DNA of 64,000 nt from Sediminicoccus rosea (GTDB lineage Bacteria > Pseudomonadota > Alphaproteobacteria > Acetobacterales > Acetobacteraceae), in contig NZ_CP137852.1 of NCBI RefSeq assembly GCF_033547095.1, positions 2,535,501 to 2,599,500 of the forward strand. The letters run 5' to 3'. Below are positions 19,077 to 38,423 of the stretch, in pieces. Numbering within the stretch: position 1 is the stretch's first letter; every line of letters starts with the position of its first letter. The translations under genes were made by a program, and so were the position numbers. Under the pieces are notes generated by a model. It was not told where the DNA came from and ran no database searches. It saw nothing but the letters and a program-made list of their open reading frames with translations.

Positions 19077-19773
19077 TCAGGGAAAGGGCAGGCGGATCCG
19101 CTCGCGGAACCAGAAGCTGCCCTCGGGCCACCGGGCTCGCGTGGTCGGGCGGCCGGCGGTCGCCCAGGGGAACGCCCCGGCGATCCGCAGGCTCTCGCCG
19201 GGGGCCACGTCCTGCCGCAGGGTGCTACGCGCCATCCCGCTGGCTGCGCGCACGGCCGGCGACGCAGGTGTTCCAGCCGCGATCATGCCCGTCTCGCGCG
19301 GCAGATGCGTCAGCTCGTCGCGCGTGAATGGCTTCCCCAGCGTGCCGTGGCGGGCCATCCCGGCGTCCAGCCCACCCTCCGGCGCGCTGTCGCCCGGGTT
19401 TCAGCAGATCTCGCCCACCACGGCCCTCTGCACTCTCGGTGCCAGGAGGCCGAAGACGTGGCACGCGGCCTTCCGCTCATCGATCACGTGCGGCAGGCCT
19501 TCCATCATGCCGCGCAGGAATTCCGCGCGGGCCGGCATGTTGGAGTCCCGCTTGGCCCGGGCGCGCTCGATGCGCCGCTTCGCGGTGTCAGCATGTCCGG
19601 GCCCGGCTCCAGCAGCATGACGCGGCGGCCGATCATCAGGAACGCCTCGGCCAGCCATCCTCGCCCCGGGCCGGCATCCACGCTGGTGCCGCCCGCCAGG
19701 TCGAGCTTCTGGATGATGTTCAGCGCGTTGCAGAGGGCGCGGAAGCAATGGACCTGGCCGCGCGCCGCAGCGC
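19077..19773 (-). pseudogene. Degraded SAM-dependent methyltransferase
   Basis: Read leftward, one frame gives a methyltransferase-like motif I, VDAGPGRGWLAEAFL, then MIGRRVMLLEPGPDML. After that the coding sense moves to the next frame (AKRRIERARAKRDSNMPARA, then FLRGMMEGLPHVIDER), is cut by TGA at 19401-19403, and resumes in that second frame with HGTLGKPFTRDEL to the end. A frameshift near 19595 plus an in-frame stop, and a 5' end running into the neighbouring gene, mark this as a remnant. It fills the whole space between the aldolase and the export operon. Confidence 0.65.
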
Positions 19774-21927
19774 CTATTCCCGCAGCACGACGACGTCCCC
19801 GGGCGAAAGACCCTCGCGGATCTCGATGCCCTCGGGTGTGCTGATGCCGAGTGTCACGGGGCGCGAAACCACGCGCCCGCCCTCGCGCACGCGCACGATG
19901 CGGCTGCCGCCCTCGTCGCGCACCGCATTGGGCGGCAGCACCACCGCATCCTCGCGCTCATGCGTGATGATGGCGAGGCTGGCCGACATGCCGACGGCGA
20001 GCCGGGCGCGCTGCTCGGGCGTCAGGTCGGTGATGGCGATGCTGACCGCGAAATTGGGCATGCCGCGCCCCATGCCACCCTGTTCGGAGCTGGCCTGCGC
20101 GGCGACGGAGGCGACGCGGCCGCTCAGCACCTCGCCGGCGAAGGCATCGCCCGTCACGGTCACGTTCTGGCCCGGCCGCACCTGGTTCACGTCGATCTCG
20201 TCCACCTGGCCGCGCACCAGGAAGCCGGCGAGGTCGCCGATGCCGAACATGGTCTGCCCGCGGGAGACACGGGAGCCGGCCTCGATGGTCTCGGCCCGGC
20301 CCTGGCCGCCCTGGCGCTCGGGCGGCAGCAGCACCACGCCCGAGACGGGGGCGCGGACCTCGGCGTTCCGCAGGTCGGTCTCCAGCTCGCGCACGCGCGT
20401 CTCGGCATTGGCGAGCTCAAGCTCGGCGGTGCGCAGATGCAGCTCGCTGCCGCGCTCCATCGTCGCGGCCAGATCCTGCTGCGCCGCCTGCAACTGCAGT
20501 TCCTGGTTGCGCTGCTGCTGGACGAGGTTGCGATGCTCCTCTGCCGGGATGATGCCGCGGCTCAGCAGCATCTGGCTTTGTTGCAGCCGGGCGCGGAGGT
20601 TGCTGGTCTCGAGCTCGGCCGCCGCCAATTGCCGCCGGGCGCGCGCCACCTCGAAGCCATTGGCCCAGCCGCGCAGTTCCTCGACGCGCTGGCGGGCGCG
20701 GATCTCGGCGGCGCGGGCCTCGCGCAGGCGCGTCTCCACATCGCCGCGGTCCATCCGCAGCAGCACGTCGCCCTGCGTCACTGCGCCGCCATAGCGGAAC
20801 AGCCGCTCGCGCACCGTGCCGTCATAGGGGGCGACGACGCTGACATTGGCGCCCGGCTCCAGCACGCCGACGACGGCGATGCGCGCGCTGACGGGCTGCG
20901 CCGTCGCCGTCATGGTCACGGTGCCGCTGGCCGCCCCGGCCGCGAATTCATCGGGGCCGGCGGGCGAGAACCAGGTCCAGGCGGCGACGCCGAAGACGCC
21001 GAGGAAGGCCGCAACCACCGCCGCGATCCGCAGGGCCGCGATGCGCCGCGCGATGCGGGCCGAGCGCGTGGCGGAATCCTCGAGCTTGAGGAAGGCGTCC
21101 TGCAACTGCGTGTATTGCGAGGCGAGTTCCGCCTGCAGGCGCTCGGTCTCGGTCACATCGGTGAAGACGGCGGTGATGGCCGGCCGCCCCGCATGGGGCC
21201 CGGTCTGCACGCGCCAGCTCGTCGCCTCGACCGAGAGGCGGCGCTCGCCCGGGAAGTCGAGCACGCGGCGGCCCTGCGGCGCCTCCTCCTCCTGGAGGGG
21301 GGCAAGGACGGCGTCGATGAAGTCATCTGTGCCGTCGCGCTCGCTCAGCAGCAGGGCGAGGCTCTGGCCGATCGCCTCCTCGGCATCAATGCCCAGGATG
21401 CGGGCGGCGGCGGGGTTCACCGTCATCACCCGCGCATCTGGGCCGATGGCGAGAACGCCATCCGTCATCACATCCAGCGCGCGGCGATAATCGAGCGAGA
21501 GGCTCTCGTCGCGCCCGCGCCGTGCCGCCTCGCGCTCCGCGGCGTCCAGTTCGGCGCCGGCACGGGCGGCGAGGCGGGAGAGGCCCTCTCGCTCGGCCTC
21601 GGTCAGGCGGCGGGGCTTGCGGTCCAGCGCCAGCAACGCGCCGCGGCGGCCGGGCAGGGGGGCAATGGCGGCGAAGCGCAGCGCGGTCTCGCCCGCCACC
21701 AGCGGGTGGGCGACGAAGCGCGGATCGGCGGTGAGGTCGGAAATCTCGGCCAGAGCGTCGTCGGCTGCCGCGCTGAAGGGCTCGCCCGCGAGGTTCGCGC
21801 CGGTCACGGCGAGCAGGCCGCCTTCGCGCAGGGCCACCGCGCCGATCGGGGCCGCGCAGATCAGGGCGGCGAGCCGCGCGATATCGTCGAGGCCCGGCGC
21901 GAAGGAACCGGCTGACGCGTCAGTCAT
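19774..21927 (-). CDS. GAF-PAS-HlyD fusion: sensory periplasmic adaptor of a tripartite exporter
   Basis: A 717-residue protein with an uncommon layout. Residues about 10-125 look like a GAF domain. Residues about 148-262 form a PAS domain (LDVMTDGVLAIGPDARVMTVNPAAARILGI), ending in a linker that starts TDVTETERLQAEL. A short coiled coil leads to one membrane helix (about 298-321). The rest is a HlyD/MacA-type adaptor: a lipoyl half-motif near 352-395 (VVAPYDGTVRERLFRYGG), a long alpha-hairpin (about 395-520), the returning half (RAPVSGVVLLPP) and a beta-barrel. GAF and PAS would face the cytoplasm, the adaptor the periplasm. It overlaps the TolC-like gene by 8 bp and is last in the operon. 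Confidence 0.85.
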   Translation of the reverse strand: MTDASAGSFAPGLDDIARLAALICAAPIGAVALREGGLLAVTGANLAGEPFSAAADDALAEISDLTADPRFVAHPLVAGETALRFAAIAPLPGRRGALLALDRKPRRLTEAEREGLSRLAARAGAELDAAEREAARRGRDESLSLDYRRALDVMTDGVLAIGPDARVMTVNPAAARILGIDAEEAIGQSLALLLSERDGTDDFIDAVLAPLQEEEAPQGRRVLDFPGERRLSVEATSWRVQTGPHAGRPAITAVFTDVTETERLQAELASQYTQLQDAFLKLEDSATRSARIARRIAALRIAAVVAAFLGVFGVAAWTWFSPAGPDEFAAGAASGTVTMTATAQPVSARIAVVGVLEPGANVSVVAPYDGTVRERLFRYGGAVTQGDVLLRMDRGDVETRLREARAAEIRARQRVEELRGWANGFEVARARRQLAAAELETSNLRARLQQSQMLLSRGIIPAEEHRNLVQQQRNQELQLQAAQQDLAATMERGSELHLRTAELELANAETRVRELETDLRNAEVRAPVSGVVLLPPERQGGQGRAETIEAGSRVSRGQTMFGIGDLAGFLVRGQVDEIDVNQVRPGQNVTVTGDAFAGEVLSGRVASVAAQASSEQGGMGRGMPNFAVSIAITDLTPEQRARLAVGMSASLAIITHEREDAVVLPPNAVRDEGGSRIVRVREGGRVVSRPVTLGISTPEGIEIREGLSPGDVVVLRE

Positions 21928-23419
21928 TCAGCGAAATCCGCCATGTCTCCAGCGTGGTGCCCAGCACCTGGTCGAGCTGTGTCAGCGCATTGGCATAGGC
22001 GATCACGGCCGACAGCTCGGCGCTTTCGGCCGATTGCAGCGAGCCCTGGAAGGAGACGACCTGGAAGTTGGAGGAGCGGCCGGCCTGGAGCTTCACCAGC
22101 TCGGCCTCCAGCTGCTGTCCGGCCAGCTCGCGCGCGCGCCGCGCCAGCTCGGCCTGGCGGCGCAGCGTGTCGATGTTGCGGACCACGTCCTCCACCGCCT
22201 GGCGCAACCGGTCGCGCGCCTGCTCGATCGCGAGCTCGGACTGGCGCAGCGCGATGGTGGCGTTCACTTCCGGCTGCTCGCGCGCGATCTGGCCGAGCGG
22301 GATGTTGAACTGCAGGCCGATGTTGAAGTCGTTGCGGACCTCGGCCAGCGCGCCCAGCGTGCGCGCGAGATCGGCGCGCTGCGCCGCCCAGCCCGTGCCG
22401 GCGACGAGGGAGACGTCCCACAGGCGCTGGTTGCGCGCGACATCGAGGTTGATGCGGTTGACCTCGACCGCGAGCAGCGTGCGGAGGTAGTCGGGCTGGT
22501 TGGCGGCGGCGACGGCGAGCGCGCGCTGCGGGTTCACCCGGGCGGATTCCGCCGCCGGCCGCTCCACCGCCCAGATCCTCTGGTTCTGGTTCACCGCGAG
22601 CAGGGTGAGCAGCGCAAGCCGCGCCGCCTCATGCTGGTTGCGCGCGCCGACGAGCTGCAGCTCCTGCTGCGCGATGCTGGTCTCGGCCTGGATGAGCTCC
22701 ACCTGGGCGAGGCGGCCCGCGGCGAAGAGCGCCTGGTTGACGCTGGCGAGCTCGCGCGCGCGGCGCAGCGCCTCGGTCGCGATGCGAAGCTGCTCCTGCG
22801 CCTGGAGCAGGGTCCGGTAGCCGGTGATGGTCTGGGTGATCTGGTCCGCGACCAGCGACTTGAGCTGGAGCTTGCTGTTCTCCTCCTGGATGCGCGCGAT
22901 GCGCACCGGCGCCATGGCGAAATCCACCCCGCCGCCGGCCAGCAGCGGCTGGATCACCTGGAAGGTCGCGCGCCCCTGGCCGCTCGGGCTCTGGCCGCGC
23001 GTGTTGCTCTGCACGCCGAGCCAGCCGAACTGGAATTGCGCGCCGGTGGGGGCCGCGATGTTCACGACGGGGCCGAGCGTCGCCTGGGTCAGGTTGGTGC
23101 CGTTGGAGCGCGAGCGGGTGACGCCGCCGGTCACGCCGAAGCGCGGGTCGAAGGTCGCCTCCGCCACGCGGAGCGAGAAGCGGTCGGCCACGCGTTGCAG
23201 ATACTGGCTGCGGATCGCCCGGTTGCTGCGCAGCGCGAGGAAGACCGCCTCCGGCAGGGTGAGCGGGATGCTGCCCTCGGGCATGTTCGCCGTGGGCATG
23301 GAGGTGTTGGCGCGCGGGGCGGGCCGTTCCCGCGCCTGCTGCGCAGAGGCCGGCGCCGCCGCGAGGGAGGTGGCGCAAAGGGCGAGCGTCACGCCGAGTA
23401 TGGCCTTGCCTCCCCGCAT
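21920..23419 (-). CDS. TolC-family outer membrane efflux protein
   Basis: A 499-residue outer-membrane channel. An N-terminal signal peptide (to about ASAQQ) is followed by two internally related OEP domains rich in alanine, glutamine and leucine helices (IAQQELQLVGARNQHEAARLA; RLRQAVEDVVRNIDTLRRQA). The ATG at 23419 lies 9 bases after AGGAG; a GTG 6 bp upstream is the alternative. It is third in the ATPase-permease-channel-adaptor operon. Confidence 0.88.
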   Translation of the reverse strand: MRGGKAILGVTLALCATSLAAAPASAQQARERPAPRANTSMPTANMPEGSIPLTLPEAVFLALRSNRAIRSQYLQRVADRFSLRVAEATFDPRFGVTGGVTRSRSNGTNLTQATLGPVVNIAAPTGAQFQFGWLGVQSNTRGQSPSGQGRATFQVIQPLLAGGGVDFAMAPVRIARIQEENSKLQLKSLVADQITQTITGYRTLLQAQEQLRIATEALRRARELASVNQALFAAGRLAQVELIQAETSIAQQELQLVGARNQHEAARLALLTLLAVNQNQRIWAVERPAAESARVNPQRALAVAAANQPDYLRTLLAVEVNRINLDVARNQRLWDVSLVAGTGWAAQRADLARTLGALAEVRNDFNIGLQFNIPLGQIAREQPEVNATIALRQSELAIEQARDRLRQAVEDVVRNIDTLRRQAELARRARELAGQQLEAELVKLQAGRSSNFQVVSFQGSLQSAESAELSAVIAYANALTQLDQVLGTTLETWRISLND

Positions 23420-23559
23420 TAGCACCGTCTCCTTAATTGCGCTTCGTGCAAACTATCCCATCCTCCGGGGTTGGCCCGCAAGCCTCGGCCCGGATGGTTT
23501 TGCCGATCGGGGTGATCGTCCCCCTCGACCGCGCGCGCGGGCTGGTGTTCCCTTCCGGC

Positions 23560-23784
23560 ATGATCCGCGCCGCCGCCCTGCTGCTCCTGCTGGTTCCCGC
23601 CTGCGCGCCGCCCGCGACCCTGCGCGAGCCGGTCATCGGCGCAAGCTTCGAGCCGGTCCGTGCGCCCCTGCCGCCCTTGCCGGCGGTGATGGAATTGACG
23701 GGCGATCCGCCCATCGCCCTGCCGGACCCGGCCAGCTTCACTCCGATCGCAGCGCCTCGATCGGGTCCAGGCGCGCGGCCATGA
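23560..23784 (+). CDS. Putative small lipoprotein
   Basis: A possible 74-residue lipoprotein: MIRAAALLLLLVPAC is a short signal sequence ending in a lipobox-like VPAC, followed by a proline-rich tail. It lies divergent from the TolC-like gene, and its 3' end overlaps the end of the permease gene by 47 bp in the opposite direction. No ribosome-binding site stands out, and a longer in-frame start exists at 23437. The signal sequence is the only support. Confidence 0.35.
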   Translation: MIRAAALLLLLVPACAPPATLREPVIGASFEPVRAPLPPLPAVMELTGDPPIALPDPASFTPIAAPRSGPGARP

Positions 23785-24910
23785 CGGCCGGGTAGAAGCC
23801 GAAGAAGACGCCGACGGCGAGCGAGACGCCCGCGCCGAGCGGTGCTGCGATGGGCGAGAAATGCACGGGCCAGCCGGACATCCAGGCGAAGCCCACGCCG
23901 CCGGCATAGCCCAGCGCGACACCCAGCGCCGCGCCGAGCAGCGAAAGGATCAGCGCCTCGCTCAGGAAGAGGCGCCGCACATCCCGCCGCCTGGCCCCGA
24001 TGGCCAGCCGGATGCCGATCTCGCGCTTCCGCTCGGCCACCGACATCAGCATGATGTTCATGACGCCGACACCGCCCAGCACCAGCGCGATGCTGCCGAC
24101 CGCGCCGAGCAGCAGCGCCACGAGGCGCACCTGGCTGTTCATGCCGGCGATGAGCTGCCGGGCCGAGAGCACGTTCAGCGTGGAATCCCGCATCCCCGGG
24201 CCCAGGTGCTGCTGCAATTGCTGGGCCGCCAGCTCCGGATCGGCATCGCCGCGCAGGCGGGCGACGGCCATGGAGAGCGAGGGCGCCGCCATCACGCGCC
24301 GCGCATTGGGCACCGAGAGGAAGAGGGTGCTGTTCACATCCATCGGCAGCATGGGGTTCATCAGCACCGGCTCGATGACGCCGATCACGGTGAAGACATA
24401 GCGACTGACCCGGATCTGCGAACCAACGCGAATGGGCGAGAAGGGGGTGGAAAGCTGCTGCGCCAGGTCCGAGCCGAGCACGGCGTGCAGCTCGAACCGG
24501 TCATGCGGGGAGAGGAAGCGGCCCTGCGCCATGGGCAGGCGGCCCACATCGGCGAAGCTGCCGGTGGCGCCGATGAAGCCGGCATTGCGCGTCTGTCCTT
24601 CATAGGTGACGGGCCCGCCACCGATCATGAAGGGCGCGATCTCGCTCACCGTCGGCACCATGAGGGGCACGCTCTCGATATCGCCCAGGCGGAAATTGCC
24701 GAGGCCCTGCGGGCTGTCGGCGCGCAGCACCAGCGTGTCGGTGCCCATCTGGCGGAACTGCCGGATCGTCTCCTGCCGGGCCATGGTGCCCGCATGCAGC
24801 ATGGAAATCACCGCGCCCGCGCCGACGACGATGCCGATCAGGGCGAGCAGGCTGCGCTGCCAGGAGGCCAACAGGTTGCCGGCCGCTTCCATGAGCGTCT
24901 GGCGGATCAT
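23738..24910 (-). CDS. MacB-type ABC transporter permease
   Basis: A 390-residue inner-membrane permease of the MacB/FtsX family. An N-terminal helix (LLALIGIVVGAGAVISML) precedes a large periplasmic MacB_PCD domain (about 45-240). Three C-terminal helices follow, with the family segment MLMSVAERKREIGIRLAIGA. It lacks the fused ATPase of E. coli MacB; that is encoded separately 55 bp upstream. Confidence 0.92.
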   Translation of the reverse strand: MIRQTLMEAAGNLLASWQRSLLALIGIVVGAGAVISMLHAGTMARQETIRQFRQMGTDTLVLRADSPQGLGNFRLGDIESVPLMVPTVSEIAPFMIGGGPVTYEGQTRNAGFIGATGSFADVGRLPMAQGRFLSPHDRFELHAVLGSDLAQQLSTPFSPIRVGSQIRVSRYVFTVIGVIEPVLMNPMLPMDVNSTLFLSVPNARRVMAAPSLSMAVARLRGDADPELAAQQLQQHLGPGMRDSTLNVLSARQLIAGMNSQVRLVALLLGAVGSIALVLGGVGVMNIMLMSVAERKREIGIRLAIGARRRDVRRLFLSEALILSLLGAALGVALGYAGGVGFAWMSGWPVHFSPIAAPLGAGVSLAVGVFFGFYPAVMAARLDPIEALRSE

Positions 24911-24965: not shown

Positions 24966-25652
24966 TCATGCGTGCTCCAGCGCCATCTGGTCGGCGAGGC
25001 GCCCCTGGGTGAGCATCAGGCGGCGGCGGCAGCGGGCGGCGACGCCGGGGTCATGGGTGATGATCAGCACCAGCACGCCGAGGTCCCGGTTGATCTGCTC
25101 GAACAGGCCCATGATCTCGCGGCTGACGGTGGGGTCGAGCGCGCCGGTCGGCTCGTCGGCCAGCAGGATGGCGGGCTCGCCCACCAGGGCGCGGGCGATG
25201 GCCACGCGCTGCTTCTGCCCGCCCGAGAGCATGTTGGGCACATGGTTCAGGTGCTGGCCGAGGCCCACGCGCTCCAGCATCACCTCGGCGCGGCGGCGCG
25301 CCTCGGGCTCGGGCGTGCCGCGATACATCAGGGGCAGGGCCACGTTCCGCCAGGCGTTCAGCCGCGGCATCAGGAAGAATTGCTGGAAGACGAAGCCGAT
25401 CATCTTGTTGCGCATGGCCGATTGCGCGTCGGCCTCCGCGGCCAGCACATTCTCGCCGCGGATGCGATAGGTGCCGGAACTCGGCCGGTCCAGCAGCCCC
25501 ACGATGTTCATGAAGGTCGTCTTGCCGGAGCCCGAGCCGCCCATGAGGGAGACGAGTTCCCCCGCCTCGAGGTCGAGGTCGATGCCGTGCAGCACCGTGC
25601 GCTCGGTGGGACCGATCTTGAATTTACGGGTGATGCCGCGGAGCTCAAGCAT
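24966..25652 (-). CDS. ABC transporter ATP-binding protein (MacB/LolD type)
   Basis: A 228-residue ATPase with Walker A GGSGSGKTT, Q-loop FVFQQFFLMPRL, signature LSGGQ, Walker B ILLADEPTGALD and H-loop ITHD. It is probably the motor for the permease immediately downstream and the first gene of the export operon. Its start is 30 bp after the stop of lpxB. Confidence 0.93.
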   Translation of the reverse strand: MLELRGITRKFKIGPTERTVLHGIDLDLEAGELVSLMGGSGSGKTTFMNIVGLLDRPSSGTYRIRGENVLAAEADAQSAMRNKMIGFVFQQFFLMPRLNAWRNVALPLMYRGTPEPEARRRAEVMLERVGLGQHLNHVPNMLSGGQKQRVAIARALVGEPAILLADEPTGALDPTVSREIMGLFEQINRDLGVLVLIITHDPGVAARCRRRLMLTQGRLADQMALEHA

Positions 25653-30189: not shown

Positions 30190-31143
30190 CTAGCCGCCCG
30201 CGGCCTCGGGCACCATGAGCACCGCCGGGAGGCCCGGCGCCAGCGCCGCGCGGCCCAGCCGGTCGAAGCGCAGCAGGCGCGTCGCGGCGAGGCCCGCCAT
30301 CGTCTCGATGGCCAGCGGCAGCACCTCGATCGCCTGGCCCCCAGGGGCGGCGGGCCGCACCAGCCCATGCTCGGCGAGGCGCAGCACCACGCGCCGCATC
30401 TGCGTCCGCGAGAGGCCGAAGCGCGCGGCGTGCTCGGCATAGGGCAGGGCCACCATGCCCGGTTCCGGCTTGCGGTCGCTCCAGGGCAGGGCATGCAGCA
30501 GGGCGCAGAGCACGACATACCCGCCCTCCGTATCGGCGACGGCGGCCAGGGGCGGGAAGCGAAGCACCATGCTCGGCTCCTCGATGATGGCACGCGCGCG
30601 CAGCAGCGAGAGGCGCCAGAAGAAACCGGGGTCCGACTCGAGCCGGGCCCGCAGACCCTCGCCGCGCCCGAGCATGGCCAGCGCCTCCAGGTGGAAGCCG
30701 ACCCGCGTCTGCACCTGCGTGACCAGTGGCTCGGCCGGCTCAAGCCGCCGCTGCCGCCGGTCATTTCCGGGCGGCGCGGGGCGCACGAGGTTGGAGCGCC
30801 GCAGCAGGCCGAGATTGGTCTCGGCGCGGCCATGGCTCATCAGGCCGAGGGGCACGCAGATCTGCTTCAGCCGGGTCAGGGTCAGGCCGGGCCGTGCGGG
30901 GTCGAGCAGATGCTCCGCGTGCAGGGCCAGGGCGAAGATGGTGAAGAAGTGCCGGCCCTCATCGGCGTTCAGCTTGTTGATCAGCCAGCCATCCTGGAGC
31001 CGGAGAAAGCCATCCAGGATGTGCCGCAGGGCCGCGGGAAGCGCCGGATGGGCCAGCAACGCATCCAGCCCCGGCTCGTGATCCGGGCTGGGGGATGAGG
31101 CGCTGCGGGGCGCGAGATCATGCAAGGTGGAAACCTCTGGCAA
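30190..31143 (-). CDS. Putative two-winged-helix transcriptional regulator
   Basis: A 317-residue protein with no firm family assignment. Two segments look like winged helices: about 85-125 (RLKQICVPLGLMSHGRAETN) and about 230-285 (HAARFGLSRTQMRRVVLRLA). No signal peptide or membrane helix. The apparent start is TTG at 31143; a TTG six codons later is possible. It is divergent from the giant autotransporter across 323 bp that contain a perfect palindrome, so control of that gene is a reasonable guess. Confidence 0.6.
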   Translation of the reverse strand: MPEVSTLHDLAPRSASSPSPDHEPGLDALLAHPALPAALRHILDGFLRLQDGWLINKLNADEGRHFFTIFALALHAEHLLDPARPGLTLTRLKQICVPLGLMSHGRAETNLGLLRRSNLVRPAPPGNDRRQRRLEPAEPLVTQVQTRVGFHLEALAMLGRGEGLRARLESDPGFFWRLSLLRARAIIEEPSMVLRFPPLAAVADTEGGYVVLCALLHALPWSDRKPEPGMVALPYAEHAARFGLSRTQMRRVVLRLAEHGLVRPAAPGGQAIEVLPLAIETMAGLAATRLLRFDRLGRAALAPGLPAVLMVPEAAGG

Positions 31144-31466
31144 TCTGTGGGCGCCGCCGGCCCGGGACTTCCGGTGCGGCCGGGACGCGGCGCGCCAGAA
31201 TTAGGCGGTTTCGTGCCGCCGCCAACAGCCCAGCCCGGCCGGCAGACCCTGCGCCGGCGTGGCGACCGGCTGAGGCCGCGGCCATCCGCGACTCCCTTCG
31301 CCCATTGCTCCCAGTTTTGGCCGCGGCGGCGCGGTGGCCGCCCGGCGGCCGTCATGTCAATTTTGACATTCCCTGCTCAGGTCGCGGCAAGCCGACGCGC
31401 CCGGGGCAGGGCGGCACGGCAGGCCCGGGCAATTCGCACCGGCATGCGTCCATCGGGGAAGAGAGA
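31144..31466. other. Intergenic region between regulator and autotransporter
   Basis: A 323-bp divergent spacer. It is very GC-rich except around 31350-31370, where one 16-bp perfect palindrome lies. TTGACA occurs in both directions within that palindrome, but no good -10 hexamer was found at 16-18 bp. GGGGAAGAG just before 31467 can serve as ribosome-binding site for the autotransporter. No small ORF was convincing. Confidence 0.5.
31354..31369. promoter_or_regulatory. Perfect 16-bp palindrome, candidate operator
   Basis: ATGTCAATTTTGACAT is a perfect inverted repeat of 7-bp arms around TT, the only AT-rich stretch of the divergent spacer. It is about 98 bp before the autotransporter start. 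The size and symmetry suit a dimeric regulator, possibly the winged-helix protein on the other side. It is not a PpsR box, as the TGT-ACA gap is 8. Confidence 0.5.
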
Positions 31467-34400
31467 ATGAACCAGCCAGTCCAGACGCGCATGCGCCGCC
31501 TTTCCCTTCGCCATGCCCTGATGGTCTCGACCGCGCTGCTGGTCCTCCCCGAGGCCACTCTCGCGCAGGAGGTGTCCTGCCCGGTCGATTCCGTGAACTG
31601 CACGGTTCCCGCCGGGAACTTCAACACGCCCTATGCCGGGCAATCCTTCAACGGCACGCCCGTCACCTTCGTGAACAACGGCACCTTCAACGTGACGACG
31701 CCGCAGACGGCGACCTTCCTGGGAGCCCTGCAGTCCATCGCCAACGGGCAGAGCGGGGCCAGTTCCAGCAGCGGCAACGCCGGCTCGGGCACCGACGGCC
31801 CTACCATCTCCTTCACCAATGCCGGCATGGTCACGCATTCCATCTCCAGCCTGATCAATGCCACCAATGTCGCCAACACGGTGTATGCCGCTTCCATCGG
31901 CGGCAATGGCGGCACCGACTCCAATGCTCAGGCCAATGCCGGCAACGCGGGGGCGGGCAGCGCCGCCACCCTGGCGAACTCCGCCACCATCACCGTGAAC
32001 CAGGCCGGCGCCTCCGTCGGCACGCCGAGCACGCTGCTGAGCGGCGCCGCGCTCCTGGTGGACAGCGTGGGCGGCAATGGCGGCAACGTGACCTCCCAGG
32101 GCCCTGACAGCAACCAGAACCCGACCTACCACACGGCGAATGGCGCGCCCGGCGCCGCGGCCGGCAGCGCGACGCTGACCAATTCAGGGACGGTGAGCGT
32201 CTCGCTCGGGCAGCCTCTCGTCTCGATCGGCTACTGGGGCGCGGGCGCCCGCTCGCTCGGCGGCGCGGCGGGCACTGGCAATGACGGCCAGCCCGGCGGC
32301 AATGGCGGGACCGCCACCGTCATCAACACGGGCAATGTCGGGGTGGCCTTCACCTGGAATTCCACGCAACTCTCGGCCTCCAATTCGCTGACGCCCACCC
32401 AGGGCGGCTTCGCGGTCGTCGCGTCGAGCCAGGGTGGCGCCGGCGTCATGTCGGTGAACAGCGGGAACAATGGCGGCAGCGGCGGCAATGCCTCCAATGC
32501 CAGCGTCCTGGTGGATGGCACCGCCCGGCCAGCGAACCTGCCCGTCACCATCACGCTCAACACGGGCTATACCCCCGGCAGCGGCGTCCCGCCGATCGCG
32601 GCCGCCGTCGCCGCGCTCAGCCGGGGTGGCAGTGGCGGCTCGGGCTATGATTCCTCGACGGGCGGCTTCGGCGGCGCCACGGGCTCGGCGCAGGTGGCGC
32701 TGCTCGGCGCCGTGCAGGTCCAGGCCTCCGGGAACTCGACCTATGGCGTGCTCGCTGCGGCCCAGGGCGGGGTGGGCGGCAGTACCGGCGTCGCGCAGGA
32801 CAACAGCAAGGCCGGGGATGGCGGCAGCACGGGGACGGCGAATAGCGGCGTGAATGCTGCCACCGTCACCATCGTCGGGGCCACGGTCGCCACCACCGGC
32901 TTCACCTCGCACGCCGTCGCCGCCATCAGCCAGGGCGGACCGGGTGGCGTCGGGCTGGACTACAAGCAGACCGGCGGCCTGGTGCAGAATGGCGGCGTCG
33001 GCGGCAATGGCGGGAATAACGGCGCGATCCGCATGGACATCGCGGCCACCACCATCACGACCACCGGGGAAGACTCCATCGGCGTCCTGGCCATCACCCA
33101 GGGTGGCTGGGGCGGCAATGGCGGCAACCTGACATCGGGCGAGGGCAACTCGGGCCCGGGCGGCGCGGGCGGTCAATCGGCGCCCATCGTCGTGAACATC
33201 AATGCCGGCACGACCATCACGACCGGCGCCGATGGCTCGCACGGCGTCTCCGCCTCATCCCTCGGTGGTGGGGGCGGGACGGGCGGCGCGGTGAATGTCC
33301 TGCTCGGCGCGGGCCTCGGCAATGGCGGCGCGGGTGGCGGGGGCTATGACGTCACGGTGACGCTGGCACCCGGCACCGGCGTGATGGTCAACGGCCTCCA
33401 GGCCATCGGTGTGCTGGCCCGCAGCGTGGGCGGCCCGGGCGGTGCCGGAGCCCTCTACAACTCCCAGGGCGGCATCTCCAGCAACGCGGCCAATGGCGGG
33501 CCGGGCGGCAATAGCGGCACCGTCCTCATCACCAGCGGTGCCACGATCTTCACCCGGGGCAATGCGGGGCATGGCCTGGTCGCGCAATCGGTGACCGGGA
33601 CCGGCGGCACGGGCGGCACGGGCGCGGGCGTCGTCTATGCGCCGGCCGGCTCTGGTGGGTCGAGCGGTTTCACCGGCTCGGCGACCATCAACAACAGCGG
33701 CTTCATCCAGACCGTGGGCGCCGGGGCGAATGCCATCCAGGCGCAGTCCATCGGCGGCGATTCCGGCTCGGGCGGCAGTTCGAGCGGCGGCCTGGTTACC
33801 TTGGGCGGCTCGGGCTCGGCCGCGGCGAATGGCAATTTCGCCAATGTCACGCACACCGGCAGCATCACCACCTTCGGCCAGAACAGCCTCGGCATCCTGG
33901 CGCAGTCCATCGGCGGCGGCGGCGGCAATGGCGGCGATTCGAGCGCCGGGCTGAGCGCGGTCGGCGGCACCGGCAGCGGCGGCGGCGCGGGCGACACCGT
34001 CACCGTGAACGTCAACGGCAGCATCACCACCCTTGGGCAACTGGCGCATGGCGTGGTCGCGCAATCCATCGGCGGCGGCGGCGGCAATGGCGGGAATGCC
34101 TCGGACACGGGCGCCTTCGTGGCCCTCGCGATCGGCGGCTCCGGCGCGGCCGGTGGGACGGGCGGCGCGGTGGTGCTGAACGCCACGGGCGGGACCATCA
34201 ACACCTACGGCTCGAACGCCATCGGCATGGTCGCGCAATCCATCGGCGGTGGCGGCGGCACGGGCGGCGGCGCCTATGCGCTGGCGGGGGGGCTCGGCTT
34301 CTCGGCGGGCGTCTCGATCGGCGGCAATGGCGGCGCGGGCGGCAGTTCGACCAATGCCAACGGCCCCGCCGTACAGGCGACGCTCAACGCCATCACCATC

Positions 34401-37400
34401 TCGACCGGGCTGTCCACCCGGGCCGGCACCAACACCAACCCGGTGGATGCGCATGGCCTCGTCCTGCAATCCATCGGCGGCGGCGGCGGCGCGGGCGGTT
34501 CGGCCTCCGCCGCGGCCCTCACGGCCGCTATCCCCATCCCGGATACGGACACCAGCTACTCCGCGGCGCTCACCTACGCGATGGGCGGCAAGGGCGGCAC
34601 GGGCGGCGCTGGCGGCTATGTCTTTCTCACGCTCGGCGGCGCCAGCAGCATCACCACCCAGGGCCAGGGCTCGCATGGCGTGCTGCTGCAATCCATCGGC
34701 GGCGGCGGCGGCGCGGGCGGCGATTCCTCCGCCATGGCAACCACCCTCTCCCTGGCCTCGGCGACCGACCGGGAGAACTTCTCGCTGTCCACGAGCGTCG
34801 CGGTGGGCGGCGGCGGCGGCACGGGCGCGACGGGCGGCCCCATCACCGCCAACATCAATGGCGGCGTGATCACGACCTATGGCGACTTCGCCAATGCGCT
34901 GGTGGCGCAGAGCATCGGCGGTGGCGGCGGCAATGGCGGCGTCGGCTCCACCACCACGCAGAGTTTCGGCAGCACCGCCTCGCTGGGACTGGGGATCGGC
35001 GTCGGCGGCACCGGCGGCACGGGCGGCAACAGTTCCGTGGTCCAGGTCAACCTGGCGGCCGGTGCCACGCTGCAGACCTATGGCGCGGGCTCGGTCGGCC
35101 TGATGGCGCAGAGCATCGGCGGCGGCGGCGGTACATCCCAGGGCTCGACGGTCAATCTCGGTGGCGCCGTGGATGGCGACGGGAACGTCACCCGCGCGGC
35201 GCAGATCAGCGTCAGCGTGGGCGGCACCGGCGGCGCCGGCGGCGATGGCGGCCTTGTTGTGGCCAACATGGCCGGCACGATCGCCACCAGCGGCGGCGAT
35301 TCGGCGGGCGTCGTCCTGCAGAGCATCGGCGGTGGTGGCGGCGTGGGCGGCACGGCGGGCGCGGATGCCTCGGCCGACAACCCGGTCTCGCCTGTCGCCA
35401 AGGCACGCCAGGCGGTGACCAACGCGATCACCGGCAGCAGCACCCAGGGCTATTCGGCGAGCGTCGCGGTGGGCGGCAATGGGGGCGCGGCGGGACAGGG
35501 CGGCGCCATCAACTACAGCCAGTTTGGCCGCATCACGACGCAGGGCGACTGGTCGCGCGGCGTCGTCCTGCAGAGCATCGGCGGCGGTGGCGGCATGGGT
35601 GGCATCGCCACCTCGAACAGCAGCGGATCCAGTTTCGCGGCCTCCTTGGCGGTCGGCGGCGGCGGCGGTGCGGCGGGCGCGGGCGGGGCCATCACCATCC
35701 AGATGGCTCCGGGCAGCGTGATCAGCACGGGCGTGGCCGGCATCTCGGGCTATGGCGCCTTCGGCCTGCTGGCGCAGAGCATTGGCGGCGGCGGCGGCAC
35801 GGGCGTGGATGGTTCGGCGCAGTCGCAAAGTGACCTCGCGCTTGGCGCGGGCGTGGGGGGCAACGGCGGCGCGGCGGGCAATGCCGGCTATGTGAGCTTC
35901 TCGGGCACGACCACCATCGTGACCGCGGGTGCCGTCGCCGCGGGGCTCGTGCTGCAATCCATCGGCGGCGGCGGTGGGCTGGCCGCGCGCGGCTCCACGC
36001 TTTCGGCCAGCTATGGTGACACGAACCTGAAGACCACCCTCCAGGTGGGCGGGCAGAGTGGCAGTTCGGGCGACAGCGGCGGCATCGGCATAAATGCCAG
36101 CCTCACGATCCAGACGGCCGGCGCGCACGCCTATGGCATCCTGGCCCAGGGCATCGGCGGCGGCGGCGGCTTCGCCTTCACCGAGAATGGCACCACCGTC
36201 CAGTTCGCCAATGTCGGCGGCACGGAGGGCGGAGGCAGCGGCTCCGGCTCGGGCGGTGGCATCTCGATGACTTTGGCGGGTGGCGGCATCCAGACCTCGG
36301 GCTTCGCCGCGCATGGCATCGTCGCCCAGTCCATCGGCGGCGGCGGCGGCATCGCGGGGCTGCCGGCCAGCAACGCGGTCACCATGTCCACCACCAACTA
36401 CGCGGAGCTCGAGCCGCAGACGGTCGTGCCCTCCGGGGCTGGGGGCTCGGTCAACATCACCTCCAGCACGCCCATCACCACGCGGGGCGACCTCGCCTAC
36501 GGCATCCTGGCGCAGAGCATCGGCGGCAGCGGCGGGCTGGTGGTCAACAGCAACCAGCTGTACGCGGGTGTCACCTTCATGCCGCTGTACGGCCAGACGG
36601 GAAGCAGCCGCGCGGAGGCGGTGAACATCATCCAGAGCGCGCCGATCGTAACCTCCGGCCTCAATTCCGTGGGCATCTTCGCGCAGTCGCGCGGCAGCGG
36701 CGGGGATGGCTCGGTCAGCGTCGGGATCCAATCCACCGTGCAGGGCGGCTCGGGGCCGCAGGGTGTCGGCGTCTGGGTGGACAGTTCTAACACCGCCAAC
36801 ATCGTGAGCATCACCACCACGGGCAGCCTCTCCGCGCTCTCGGGCAATGCGCTGCTGATGACGGCCGGCCAGGCGGTGAACAACGGCACCGTCACGGGCA
36901 ATGTCACCATCGGGAACAACGGCACCTTCACCAACAACGGGCAGTACAACCCGGGCACCACGGCCAATGTCGGGCTGCTGGTGAACACCGGGCGCATCGC
37001 CATCGCCTCGCACACCGCCTTCGGCGTGACGGCGGTAAGCGGCGCCTTCACCCAGACCAGCACAGGCCGCCTGATTCCCGATGCCGATTTCGCGGGCGGC
37101 CGCTCGGACGTGATGACGGTGGCCGGCGCCGCGAGCCTGGATGGCCGGGTGCGGCCGCGCATCAGCTCCGTCCTGCCCAATGTGGAGCTGCCCTTCCTCG
37201 TGGTGGGCGGGCCCGTCACGGGCCAGATCACGGGCGACCAGACCGAGATCTTCGGCTATGACGTGAGCCGCAAGGGCGGCACCTTCTCGGTCTCGGCCAA
37301 TGCGGATTTCACGCCCGCCGGCTACAATCTGAGCCGCGATGGCAGCTTCGTCGCGAACTACATGCAGGCGGCCTGGGATGTGGGCGGACAGGGGCTGGGC

Positions 37401-38423
37401 AGGCTCTTCGCCACGCTCGGCAACCTCGCGGATACGGGCGGGCAGGCGGCCTATAGCGCGGCGCTGCGGCAGATCTCGCCCAACAGCGCCTTCGCCCCGG
37501 GCGCGCGGCTCGCCGCCGGGGCGCGGGCCTTCGCCAATGCGGCGATGAGCTGCCCGCAATTCGACGGCACGACCAGCATGCTGGTCGAGGGCGAGTGCAT
37601 CTGGGGTGGGCTGACCGGGCGGACCGCCGCGCAGGCGGGCACGGACGGCATCTCCAGCTTCCGCCTGAACTCCACCACCTGGCAGGTGGGCGGGCAGCGC
37701 AACATGGGCGGCGGCTGGTTCCTCGGCGGCTCCATCGCCTATGAGAACAGCCGCCTCAGCACGACGGACGGGCTGAACAGCGGCCGCGGCCAGGCGGGCT
37801 TCGGCGCCATCACCGGCAAGTACCAGACCGGCCCCTGGCTCTTCTCCGGCGCCGTCTTCGGCGGCGGGGGCGAGTTCAACAGCACGCGCACCATCACGCT
37901 GCCGGGCTTCGGCTCGATCGCGCGGGGCAGCCCGACGCTGGCGCAGGTGGGCGGCGCGCTGCGCGCCACCTACACGATCGGCCGCGAGGAATTCTACCTG
38001 CGGCCCTCGATGACGCTCAGCCTCGTGCATGCGCGCAGCGGCGCCTATCGCGAGAGCGGGGCGGGGCTGCTCAACCTCGACGTGGCGGCCGCCTCCAACA
38101 CGGTGGCGGGGCTGACGCCGGCGCTGGAGCTGGGTGGGCGCGTGAACCTGCAGGATGGCACGGTGCTGCGGCTCTTCACCTCGGCGGGCGTCAGCCTGCT
38201 CAGCTCGGGCGACTGGACCCAGCAGAGCCGGCTGGTCGGCGCGCCGGCCGCCGCAGGCCGCTTCTCGAGCCAGGTGCAGACCGACCAGGTGGTGGGGCGC
38301 GTCGTGGCCGGCGTGCAGGTCTATGCCACCAACCGGCTGGAGCTGCGCCTCCAGTATGAGGGCGAGTACAGCGCGAACCTGACCGGCCATGGCGGGTCCT
38401 TCGCGCTGGCCTACCGCTTCTGA
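31467..38423 (+). CDS. Giant glycine-rich autotransporter adhesin-like protein
   Basis: A 2318-residue type V secreted protein. The start MNQPVQTRMRRLSLRHALM gives a signal peptide cut near LAQE; upstream in-frame extension has no secretion signal. The passenger (about 45-2000) consists of repeats in which a helix-like G(I/V)(L/V)(A/V)QSIGGGGG element is followed by roughly 60-90 residues of glycine-, asparagine- and threonine-rich beta-helix sequence. About 27 degenerate repeats can be counted. The C-terminal part (about 2040-2318) is the autotransporter beta-barrel, ending in FALAYRF with terminal Phe. No protease motif was seen. Likely role: cell-surface structure or adhesion (inference from the class). 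Confidence 0.9.
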   Translation: MNQPVQTRMRRLSLRHALMVSTALLVLPEATLAQEVSCPVDSVNCTVPAGNFNTPYAGQSFNGTPVTFVNNGTFNVTTPQTATFLGALQSIANGQSGASSSSGNAGSGTDGPTISFTNAGMVTHSISSLINATNVANTVYAASIGGNGGTDSNAQANAGNAGAGSAATLANSATITVNQAGASVGTPSTLLSGAALLVDSVGGNGGNVTSQGPDSNQNPTYHTANGAPGAAAGSATLTNSGTVSVSLGQPLVSIGYWGAGARSLGGAAGTGNDGQPGGNGGTATVINTGNVGVAFTWNSTQLSASNSLTPTQGGFAVVASSQGGAGVMSVNSGNNGGSGGNASNASVLVDGTARPANLPVTITLNTGYTPGSGVPPIAAAVAALSRGGSGGSGYDSSTGGFGGATGSAQVALLGAVQVQASGNSTYGVLAAAQGGVGGSTGVAQDNSKAGDGGSTGTANSGVNAATVTIVGATVATTGFTSHAVAAISQGGPGGVGLDYKQTGGLVQNGGVGGNGGNNGAIRMDIAATTITTTGEDSIGVLAITQGGWGGNGGNLTSGEGNSGPGGAGGQSAPIVVNINAGTTITTGADGSHGVSASSLGGGGGTGGAVNVLLGAGLGNGGAGGGGYDVTVTLAPGTGVMVNGLQAIGVLARSVGGPGGAGALYNSQGGISSNAANGGPGGNSGTVLITSGATIFTRGNAGHGLVAQSVTGTGGTGGTGAGVVYAPAGSGGSSGFTGSATINNSGFIQTVGAGANAIQAQSIGGDSGSGGSSSGGLVTLGGSGSAAANGNFANVTHTGSITTFGQNSLGILAQSIGGGGGNGGDSSAGLSAVGGTGSGGGAGDTVTVNVNGSITTLGQLAHGVVAQSIGGGGGNGGNASDTGAFVALAIGGSGAAGGTGGAVVLNATGGTINTYGSNAIGMVAQSIGGGGGTGGGAYALAGGLGFSAGVSIGGNGGAGGSSTNANGPAVQATLNAITISTGLSTRAGTNTNPVDAHGLVLQSIGGGGGAGGSASAAALTAAIPIPDTDTSYSAALTYAMGGKGGTGGAGGYVFLTLGGASSITTQGQGSHGVLLQSIGGGGGAGGDSSAMATTLSLASATDRENFSLSTSVAVGGGGGTGATGGPITANINGGVITTYGDFANALVAQSIGGGGGNGGVGSTTTQSFGSTASLGLGIGVGGTGGTGGNSSVVQVNLAAGATLQTYGAGSVGLMAQSIGGGGGTSQGSTVNLGGAVDGDGNVTRAAQISVSVGGTGGAGGDGGLVVANMAGTIATSGGDSAGVVLQSIGGGGGVGGTAGADASADNPVSPVAKARQAVTNAITGSSTQGYSASVAVGGNGGAAGQGGAINYSQFGRITTQGDWSRGVVLQSIGGGGGMGGIATSNSSGSSFAASLAVGGGGGAAGAGGAITIQMAPGSVISTGVAGISGYGAFGLLAQSIGGGGGTGVDGSAQSQSDLALGAGVGGNGGAAGNAGYVSFSGTTTIVTAGAVAAGLVLQSIGGGGGLAARGSTLSASYGDTNLKTTLQVGGQSGSSGDSGGIGINASLTIQTAGAHAYGILAQGIGGGGGFAFTENGTTVQFANVGGTEGGGSGSGSGGGISMTLAGGGIQTSGFAAHGIVAQSIGGGGGIAGLPASNAVTMSTTNYAELEPQTVVPSGAGGSVNITSSTPITTRGDLAYGILAQSIGGSGGLVVNSNQLYAGVTFMPLYGQTGSSRAEAVNIIQSAPIVTSGLNSVGIFAQSRGSGGDGSVSVGIQSTVQGGSGPQGVGVWVDSSNTANIVSITTTGSLSALSGNALLMTAGQAVNNGTVTGNVTIGNNGTFTNNGQYNPGTTANVGLLVNTGRIAIASHTAFGVTAVSGAFTQTSTGRLIPDADFAGGRSDVMTVAGAASLDGRVRPRISSVLPNVELPFLVVGGPVTGQITGDQTEIFGYDVSRKGGTFSVSANADFTPAGYNLSRDGSFVANYMQAAWDVGGQGLGRLFATLGNLADTGGQAAYSAALRQISPNSAFAPGARLAAGARAFANAAMSCPQFDGTTSMLVEGECIWGGLTGRTAAQAGTDGISSFRLNSTTWQVGGQRNMGGGWFLGGSIAYENSRLSTTDGLNSGRGQAGFGAITGKYQTGPWLFSGAVFGGGGEFNSTRTITLPGFGSIARGSPTLAQVGGALRATYTIGREEFYLRPSMTLSLVHARSGAYRESGAGLLNLDVAAASNTVAGLTPALELGGRVNLQDGTVLRLFTSAGVSLLSSGDWTQQSRLVGAPAAAGRFSSQVQTDQVVGRVVAGVQVYATNRLELRLQYEGEYSANLTGHGGSFALAYRF
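33903..36350 (+). repeat. QSIGGGGG repeat block within the autotransporter
   Basis: From the first to the last exact copy there are 12 in-frame QSIGGGGG units (first codon 33903, last unit 36327-36350). Irregular variants such as QSIGGDSG, QGIGGGGG, RSVGGPGG and SQGGAGV extend on both sides. At DNA level the units share CA(G/A)-(A/T)(G/C)C-ATC-GGC-GGC-GGC, so slippage or recombination could change repeat number. Confidence 0.85.

Follow-up and report, generated by a model that had tools for sequence, protein, structure and literature searches.

A stretch of 64,000 nucleotides from Sediminicoccus rosea (contig NZ_CP137852.1, positions 2,535,501 to 2,599,500; hereafter the window) encodes a MacA-like exporter adaptor that carries a PAS domain, preceded by a GAF-like region, on the predicted cytoplasmic side of its membrane helix. 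We give roughly even credence to the reading that this protein serves a MacB-type tripartite exporter as its one-component sensor-adaptor, which would adjust the pump. Comparison with relatives indicates that the PAS-anchored architecture is old and kept by selection. Relatives are cited below by our genome (G), contig (C) and locus (L) numbers.

Domain layout of the adaptor

The adaptor gene and its predicted parts are as follows.

19774..21927, minus strand: putative sensor-adaptor gene; 717 amino acids, ATG start, one frame, stop at 19774-19776
21547..21882, minus strand: GAF-like region, residues 16-127; Pfam 20.5 bits, under the cut-off; apparently decaying in the window clade
21139..21492, minus strand: PAS domain, residues 146-263; Pfam 42.1 bits; common to adaptors of five other families
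21037..21159, minus strand: predicted helical linker between the D(V/I)T motif and the membrane, residues 257-297; spacing taken between aligned columns
20968..21042, minus strand: predicted single membrane helix, about residues 296-320; hydropathy and positive-inside charge
19777..20967, minus strand: predicted periplasmic MacA-like adaptor part, residues 321-717; Pfam HlyD_3 and HlyD_D23; MacA chains nearest by profile

About 290 residues (GAF-like region, PAS and a charged linker) precede the membrane helix. An earlier, preliminary description of this DNA had read them as GAF followed by PAS, and a Pfam search upholds the second half of that reading: PF00989 matches residues 146-222 (E 9.9e-11, 42.1 bits against a cut-off of 22.6) and PAS_4 residues 151-263 (E 4.8e-9). 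The GAF match (PF01590, residues 16-127, E 7.6e-4) reaches 20.5 bits and stays below its cut-off of 22.4. Relatives that align over this region, two of which (L015 and L012) reach 53.2 and 46.5 bits, over the cut-off, show that it descends from a true GAF domain.

Hydropathy over 19 residues is highest from residue 296 onwards. Five Lys/Arg and two Asp/Glu lie in the 15 residues that precede this stretch, against no Lys/Arg and two Asp/Glu in the 15 that follow; a cytoplasmic N terminus fits this distribution of basic residues. Beyond the helix, HlyD_3 (E 3.3e-15) and HlyD_D23 (E 1e-13) both score over their cut-offs. Among NCBIfam models the adaptor is of RND_mfp type (TIGR01730, 105.3 bits against a cut-off of 94.9), and it falls far under the cut-off of the MacA equivalog PRK11578 (34.8 bits against 342). 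By profile, the nearest solved chains for the body are MacA (9qgy, 5nik, 3fpp) and the nearest solved PAS is that of WalK, with a match that covers the domain's first part; AtoS and WalK models also match the adaptor at low score. Pfam and hydropathy thus bear out the order of parts first proposed, from sensor-type domains through a helical linker and one membrane helix to a MacA-like adaptor, in a continuous frame.

Distribution among relatives

G000, the genome that contains the window, lies near Roseococcus. In its genus the adaptor is present in 13 of 21 members (in two pieces in G002), only fragments occur in G012, and in the other seven it was not seen, two of these being less than 75% complete. 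The G012 fragments (contigs C1 and C19) contain an internal stop and perhaps represent a decaying copy.

Among 299 Acetobacteraceae genomes, a full-length and an adaptor-only model retrieved the same 11 adaptors; five further matches to the full-length model cover only GAF and part of the PAS region and belong to other proteins. PAS is present in nine of the 11, one of which (G245) is cut by a contig end. Four of them are GAF-PAS adaptors (G000, G008, G025, G030) and five carry PAS without GAF (G016, G115, G296, G329, G245). The two without PAS are G064, which is plain, and G198, which has a GAF remnant recognized by eye and by a weak BLAST match, not by Pfam.

Searches beyond the family widened this picture. 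Across 385 genomes of the class, the adaptor-only model (E 1e-60) returned the window protein and five others from five further families, and in all five a PAS domain lies before the helix, each over a Pfam cut-off. Searches within three orders (11, 36 and 43 genomes) added six adaptors from five genomes, each with a match that spans PAS as well as the body. One of these genomes, G1059, holds two PAS-adaptors (L127 on C77 and L128 on C66). In 398 genomes of the phylum (E 1e-45) there were ten matches: the window protein, the GAF-bearing adaptor of G846 and eight that are plain as judged by frame length, five N-termini having been read. Of 72,556 plasmid records, 23 match the window protein, none over 80% of its length; the best begin at residue 317 or later, some others are only the GAF or PAS of other proteins, and all four plasmid adaptor records that were read are plain.

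Six families of the class therefore have proteins that run from PAS through linker and membrane helix to an adaptor body; a TolC gene lies next to them, as do permease and ATPase genes wherever the contig extends far enough. The preliminary description had proposed a survey for just such a conserved arrangement beside pump genes, and it is found in its PAS form. PAS is frequent and not universal in the class, because the adaptors of G1037 (one of the eight above) and of Azospirillum and Rhizobium plasmids are plain. Close homologs starting at the membrane helix had been named in advance as evidence against a sensor-pump: such starts are seen in more distant members, of which some (G1037 and the Azospirillum and Rhizobium plasmids) belong to the class of the window genome, and in G064 of its own family; G198 has a GAF remnant and no PAS, and the closest relatives keep the extension.

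Origin of the PAS domain

A PAS-plus-linker profile built from nine Acetobacteraceae adaptors scored the adaptor at 81-102 bits in all five genomes tried outside the family, against at most 42.1 for their other proteins; the best score in five genomes without a PAS adaptor was 35.8. With a PAS-only profile from the Acetobacteraceae adaptors, the adaptor came first in all ten genomes from outside the family that contain a PAS-adaptor (42.1-77.1 bits), the closest margins being 67.2 against 42.1 bits (G688) and 42.1 against 34.9 bits (G1091). Because independent fusions of unrelated PAS domains would not rank the adaptor first throughout, these scores indicate that the adaptor PAS domains of the six families share a common origin.

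In a tree rooted on four other adaptors, the deepest family branches (node support 99/99) all bear PAS, and plain adaptors fall into one inner branch (93/97) and the pair of G064 and G198. No more than three changes are required, which we read as one gain and two losses; three are also needed on the unrooted tree of all 35 rows. As the deepest rooted branches carry PAS, most plain members look like losses. The root is likely and not final, given the long branches of the outgroup and the omission of four long rows (a pair of plain adaptors from distant genomes, one from Azospirillum and the GAF-bearing one). Profile and tree together agree with the idea that the architecture is conserved, and point to its age.

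Constraint on GAF and PAS

Divergence at nonsynonymous sites (dN) was compared with that of the periplasmic part in the same pair. The GAF value is 4.7 times the periplasmic one for window-L002, 4.9 times for window-L003 and 5.3 times for L004-L005, and the PAS value is 0.21, 0.42 and 0.22 times (95% ranges 0-0.70, 0.08-1.02 and 0-0.60). For window-L006 the two ratios are 7.8 and 1.01. In the sister clade, three pairs among L007-L009 gave 0.45-0.94 for GAF and 1.35-1.89 for PAS. The ratio of GAF to PAS is thus above 1 in 4/4 window-type pairs and below 1 in 3/3 sister-clade pairs, with ranges that exclude 1; in two or three of the window-type pairs, PAS is more constrained than even the pump part. 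The ratio of nonsynonymous to synonymous rates (omega), computed for eight pairs, is 0.04-0.15 for PAS in the six that come from the window clade and L006.

In evolutionary terms, these rates indicate that GAF is losing its hold in the window clade while PAS is held, and that the reverse applies in the sister clade. GAF is absent altogether in G002, G010 and G016, the last of which keeps the overlap with tolC that fixes the start. Because GAF decays in the window clade and is missing from several relatives, PAS and not GAF appears to be the core, and GAF is best described, from these comparisons, as a lineage-specific extra. The GAF and PAS pair of sensors first suggested is accordingly well supported in its PAS member and doubtful, for this organism, in its GAF member.

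A linker of two lengths

Measured between aligned columns, 43 or 50 residues separate the Asp that opens the D(V/I)T or DIS motif from the Arg300 column in all 29 proteins; this column is mostly Arg, with Gly or Gln in some rows. In the window adaptor, the distance is 43 (Asp257 to Arg300). The first 23 proteins had either length, and the six found after the rule was seen all have 50. The two lengths differ by seven, that is by one heptad, and the step of seven occurred at least two times on the tree. Heptad periodicity of linker length is also reported for light-oxygen-voltage (LOV) and bacteriophytochrome receptors (PMC6798134).

Candidate signals

The exporter gene set adjoins what looks like a photosynthesis gene cluster, and a light-linked signal had been among those proposed. 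Putative genes for BchC, CrtF, CrtE and CrtC in this cluster lie at 14-18 kb. Similar crt/bch neighbours recur in L031, L121 and partly L123; none appeared in L106 (G016) or in the sequence read from other genera (L104, L105, L108-L111). We rejected light or phototrophy as the signal: Photo_RC is found in 11 of 26 genomes with the adaptor family and tracks neither GAF nor PAS. For example, GAF-PAS adaptors occur without a reaction centre in G008, G025 and G030 (99-100% complete) and in G001 and G007 (86-89% complete), and PAS without GAF occurs with one in G010 and G296. Within the PAS alignment, no His or Cys column reaches 40% of the 23 rows, which speaks against a LOV-type Cys and a constant haem His ligand, and not against other ligands. 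One Trp column is filled in 13 of the 23 rows.

The exporter gene set and its surroundings

Three further genes make up a four-gene set in the order ATPase, permease, TolC and adaptor.

24966..25652, minus strand: separate ABC ATPase, 228 amino acids, MacB/LolD-like; Pfam ABC_tran E 1.5e-32
23738..24910, minus strand: MacB-type permease, 390 amino acids, without a fused ATPase domain; Pfam MacB_PCD and FtsX
21920..23425, minus strand: TolC-family outer-membrane channel, 501 amino acids; Pfam OEP E 7.1e-37
21920..21927, minus strand: overlap of the tolC stop and the adaptor start, 8 bp; same in L031, L106, L121 and L123

The best NCBIfam matches of the ATPase are MacB (its N-terminal part) and LolD, each under its cut-off. 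Genes for MacAB-TolC-type components are found together in the window, and completely or partly in relatives; their products may form one pump. Pfam matches of the window genes agree with the earlier expectation of a separate ATPase, MacB-type permease and TolC next to the adaptor. No kinase is fused to the adaptor, and the 8-bp overlap described earlier is real and recurrent.

No biosynthetic neighbour is shared among 21 annotated loci, in which most neighbours are unnamed and only six were Pfam-scanned. An accessory gene as a clue to the substrate was considered and set aside: the sole find in G329, G115 and G025 was a LysR regulator that follows the adaptor, and the three remaining loci showed unrelated genes.

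Other features of the locus were recorded on the way. Between permease and tolC, opposite to the operon, lies a 74-residue lipoprotein-like frame (23560-23784, plus strand; signal and Cys by eye), with tblastn matches in 12 loci of 11 genomes, three of them weak, and no Pfam match. The remnant of a broken methyltransferase gene (19080-19750, minus strand) corresponds to a gene that in Roseococcus sp. SDR (L031:12173-13426) is intact and encodes 417 amino acids. An open frame of 2442 codons (31095-38423, plus strand) has no Pfam match and may be a chance frame in GC-rich DNA.

A possible mechanism and its alternatives

Under the sensor-adaptor reading, a cytoplasmic signal may gate the pump. 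PAS domains would dimerise in the cytoplasm below the adaptor ring and bind a small molecule or a partner, and binding would change the twist of the coiled-coil linker. This twist would pass via the membrane helix to the membrane-proximal domain and raise or lower either the stimulation of the ATPase by the adaptor or its docking with TolC; GAF, where present, would be a second input ahead of PAS. In the known pump, the ATPase of MacB is stimulated by MacA, whose membrane segment interacts with the transporter (PMC4338810). A more far-reaching version, which we hold tentatively and a little short of even belief, is that PAS anchoring is ancestral in a distinct MacA-like family of one-component sensor-pumps with a phase-locked coiled coil, in which GAF would be a swappable second input and plain adaptors would have lost the switch.

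Several results weigh against the sensor-adaptor reading. Relatives without PAS retain the same gene set, so PAS is not needed for such a pump. A ligand motif was looked for in the 23 PAS rows and none was found. PAS is not always tightly held, as the ratio of 1.01 for window-L006, the range up to 1.02 for window-L003 and the values of 1.35-1.89 in L007-L009 attest. The 29 linkers are not independent: many rows represent a single close clade, and among the six later ones three share 61-71% identity with L060. Of eight conserved linker positions, five lie on the best heptad stripe, no more than chance would give when seven registers are considered (p ~0.25). Finally, the central ERT signature that defines the S-helix (PMC1592074) is present in 0 of 29 linkers.

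PAS and coiled coil could instead be a scaffold, with no sensing, that only dimerises the adaptor or docks it to the cytoplasmic ATPase. The absence of a widely shared His or Cys in PAS would suit this, as would an ATPase that is a separate small protein on the cytoplasmic side, and PAS domains often dimerise. Scaffolding is nonetheless rather unlikely in our judgement: GAF and PAS trade constraint between sister clades, and a GAF that is present, decaying or absent among close relatives does not behave like a fixed docking surface, although both points speak little to scaffolding by PAS alone. Alternatively, what PAS (and GAF) recognize may be the molecule to be exported, or a precursor of it, and not a separate signal; HlyD recognizes its secreted protein in this way, through a small cytoplasmic part. 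Gain and loss of the two domains between relatives could then follow changing substrates. We consider such a substrate gate unlikely, given that MacB-type pumps are believed to take up their substrates on the periplasmic side and that the 21 loci, with the limits of annotation stated above, share no biosynthetic neighbour. The trade of constraint between GAF and PAS favours sensing over both scaffold and substrate gate.

Two other explanations have far less room. That the N-terminal domains are functionless relics is suggested by a GAF that scores under its cut-off and whose dN in the window clade is about five times that of the periplasmic part; this would be true at most for GAF, since PAS has an omega of 0.04-0.15 and persists in six families, and for the extension as a whole we regard it as very improbable. 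Likewise, the true start might lie at the membrane helix and the extension be an annotation artefact, and plain adaptors do exist (L048, L055). The overlap of the annotated start with tolC is 8 bp long in the genus, the PAS-bearing loci L113-L117 of five other families have one of 4 bp, and the PAS frame is under purifying selection; these observations contradict an artefact, which the preliminary description had already doubted and whose chance we put close to nil.

Comparison with known systems

According to a 2026 review, MacA has no cytoplasmic domain and adapts at the level of transcription (PMC13328181). A 2021 review notes cytoplasmic parts of considerable size in ABC- and MFS-linked adaptors and adds that knowledge of them is very scarce (PMC8277102). 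The terms 'PAS domain' and 'GAF' are absent from the searched part of the latter (Chem Rev), and no PAS- or GAF-bearing adaptor was found in the searched parts of the PubMed Central literature, a scope that most subscription papers fall outside. The parts of the present system are known; the same literature gave no description of a family whose probable ancestral form is a MacA-like adaptor with a cytoplasmic PAS. If the reading is correct, a sensor domain in the adaptor would make a pump directly switchable without kinase or regulator, and linker phase and PAS ligand would offer a handle on a signal that crosses the membrane outwards into an envelope-spanning machine.

Of the known systems, MacA of MacAB-TolC shares the periplasmic body, the single membrane helix, the MacB-type permease and the TolC partner. 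It differs in having no cytoplasmic domain (PMC13328181), whereas the window adaptor has a GAF-like region and PAS before the helix and an ATPase encoded by a separate gene. HlyD of type 1 secretion is alike in placing a cytoplasmic N-terminal part before one membrane helix (same source). That part is small in HlyD, however, and the transporter here is MacB-type. PAS-bearing membrane sensor kinases of the WalK/AtoS type share the PAS, the D(V/I)T motif and the helical linker; unlike them, the window adaptor has no kinase, cyclase or DNA-binding output, and its signal would run outwards into a pump adaptor. We know of no PAS in the cytoplasmic part of HlyD.

A further parallel in layout comes from another class of the phylum. 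The adaptor of G846 (L082; L118:11010-12920) also joins a sensor domain through a linker to a MacA-like body beside TolC, ATPase and permease. It differs in its better-preserved GAF (47.5 bits), its lack of PAS and an adjoining GAF-GAF-GGDEF gene, and this order of GAF, linker, membrane helix and adaptor perhaps represents a second route to a sensor-bearing adaptor.
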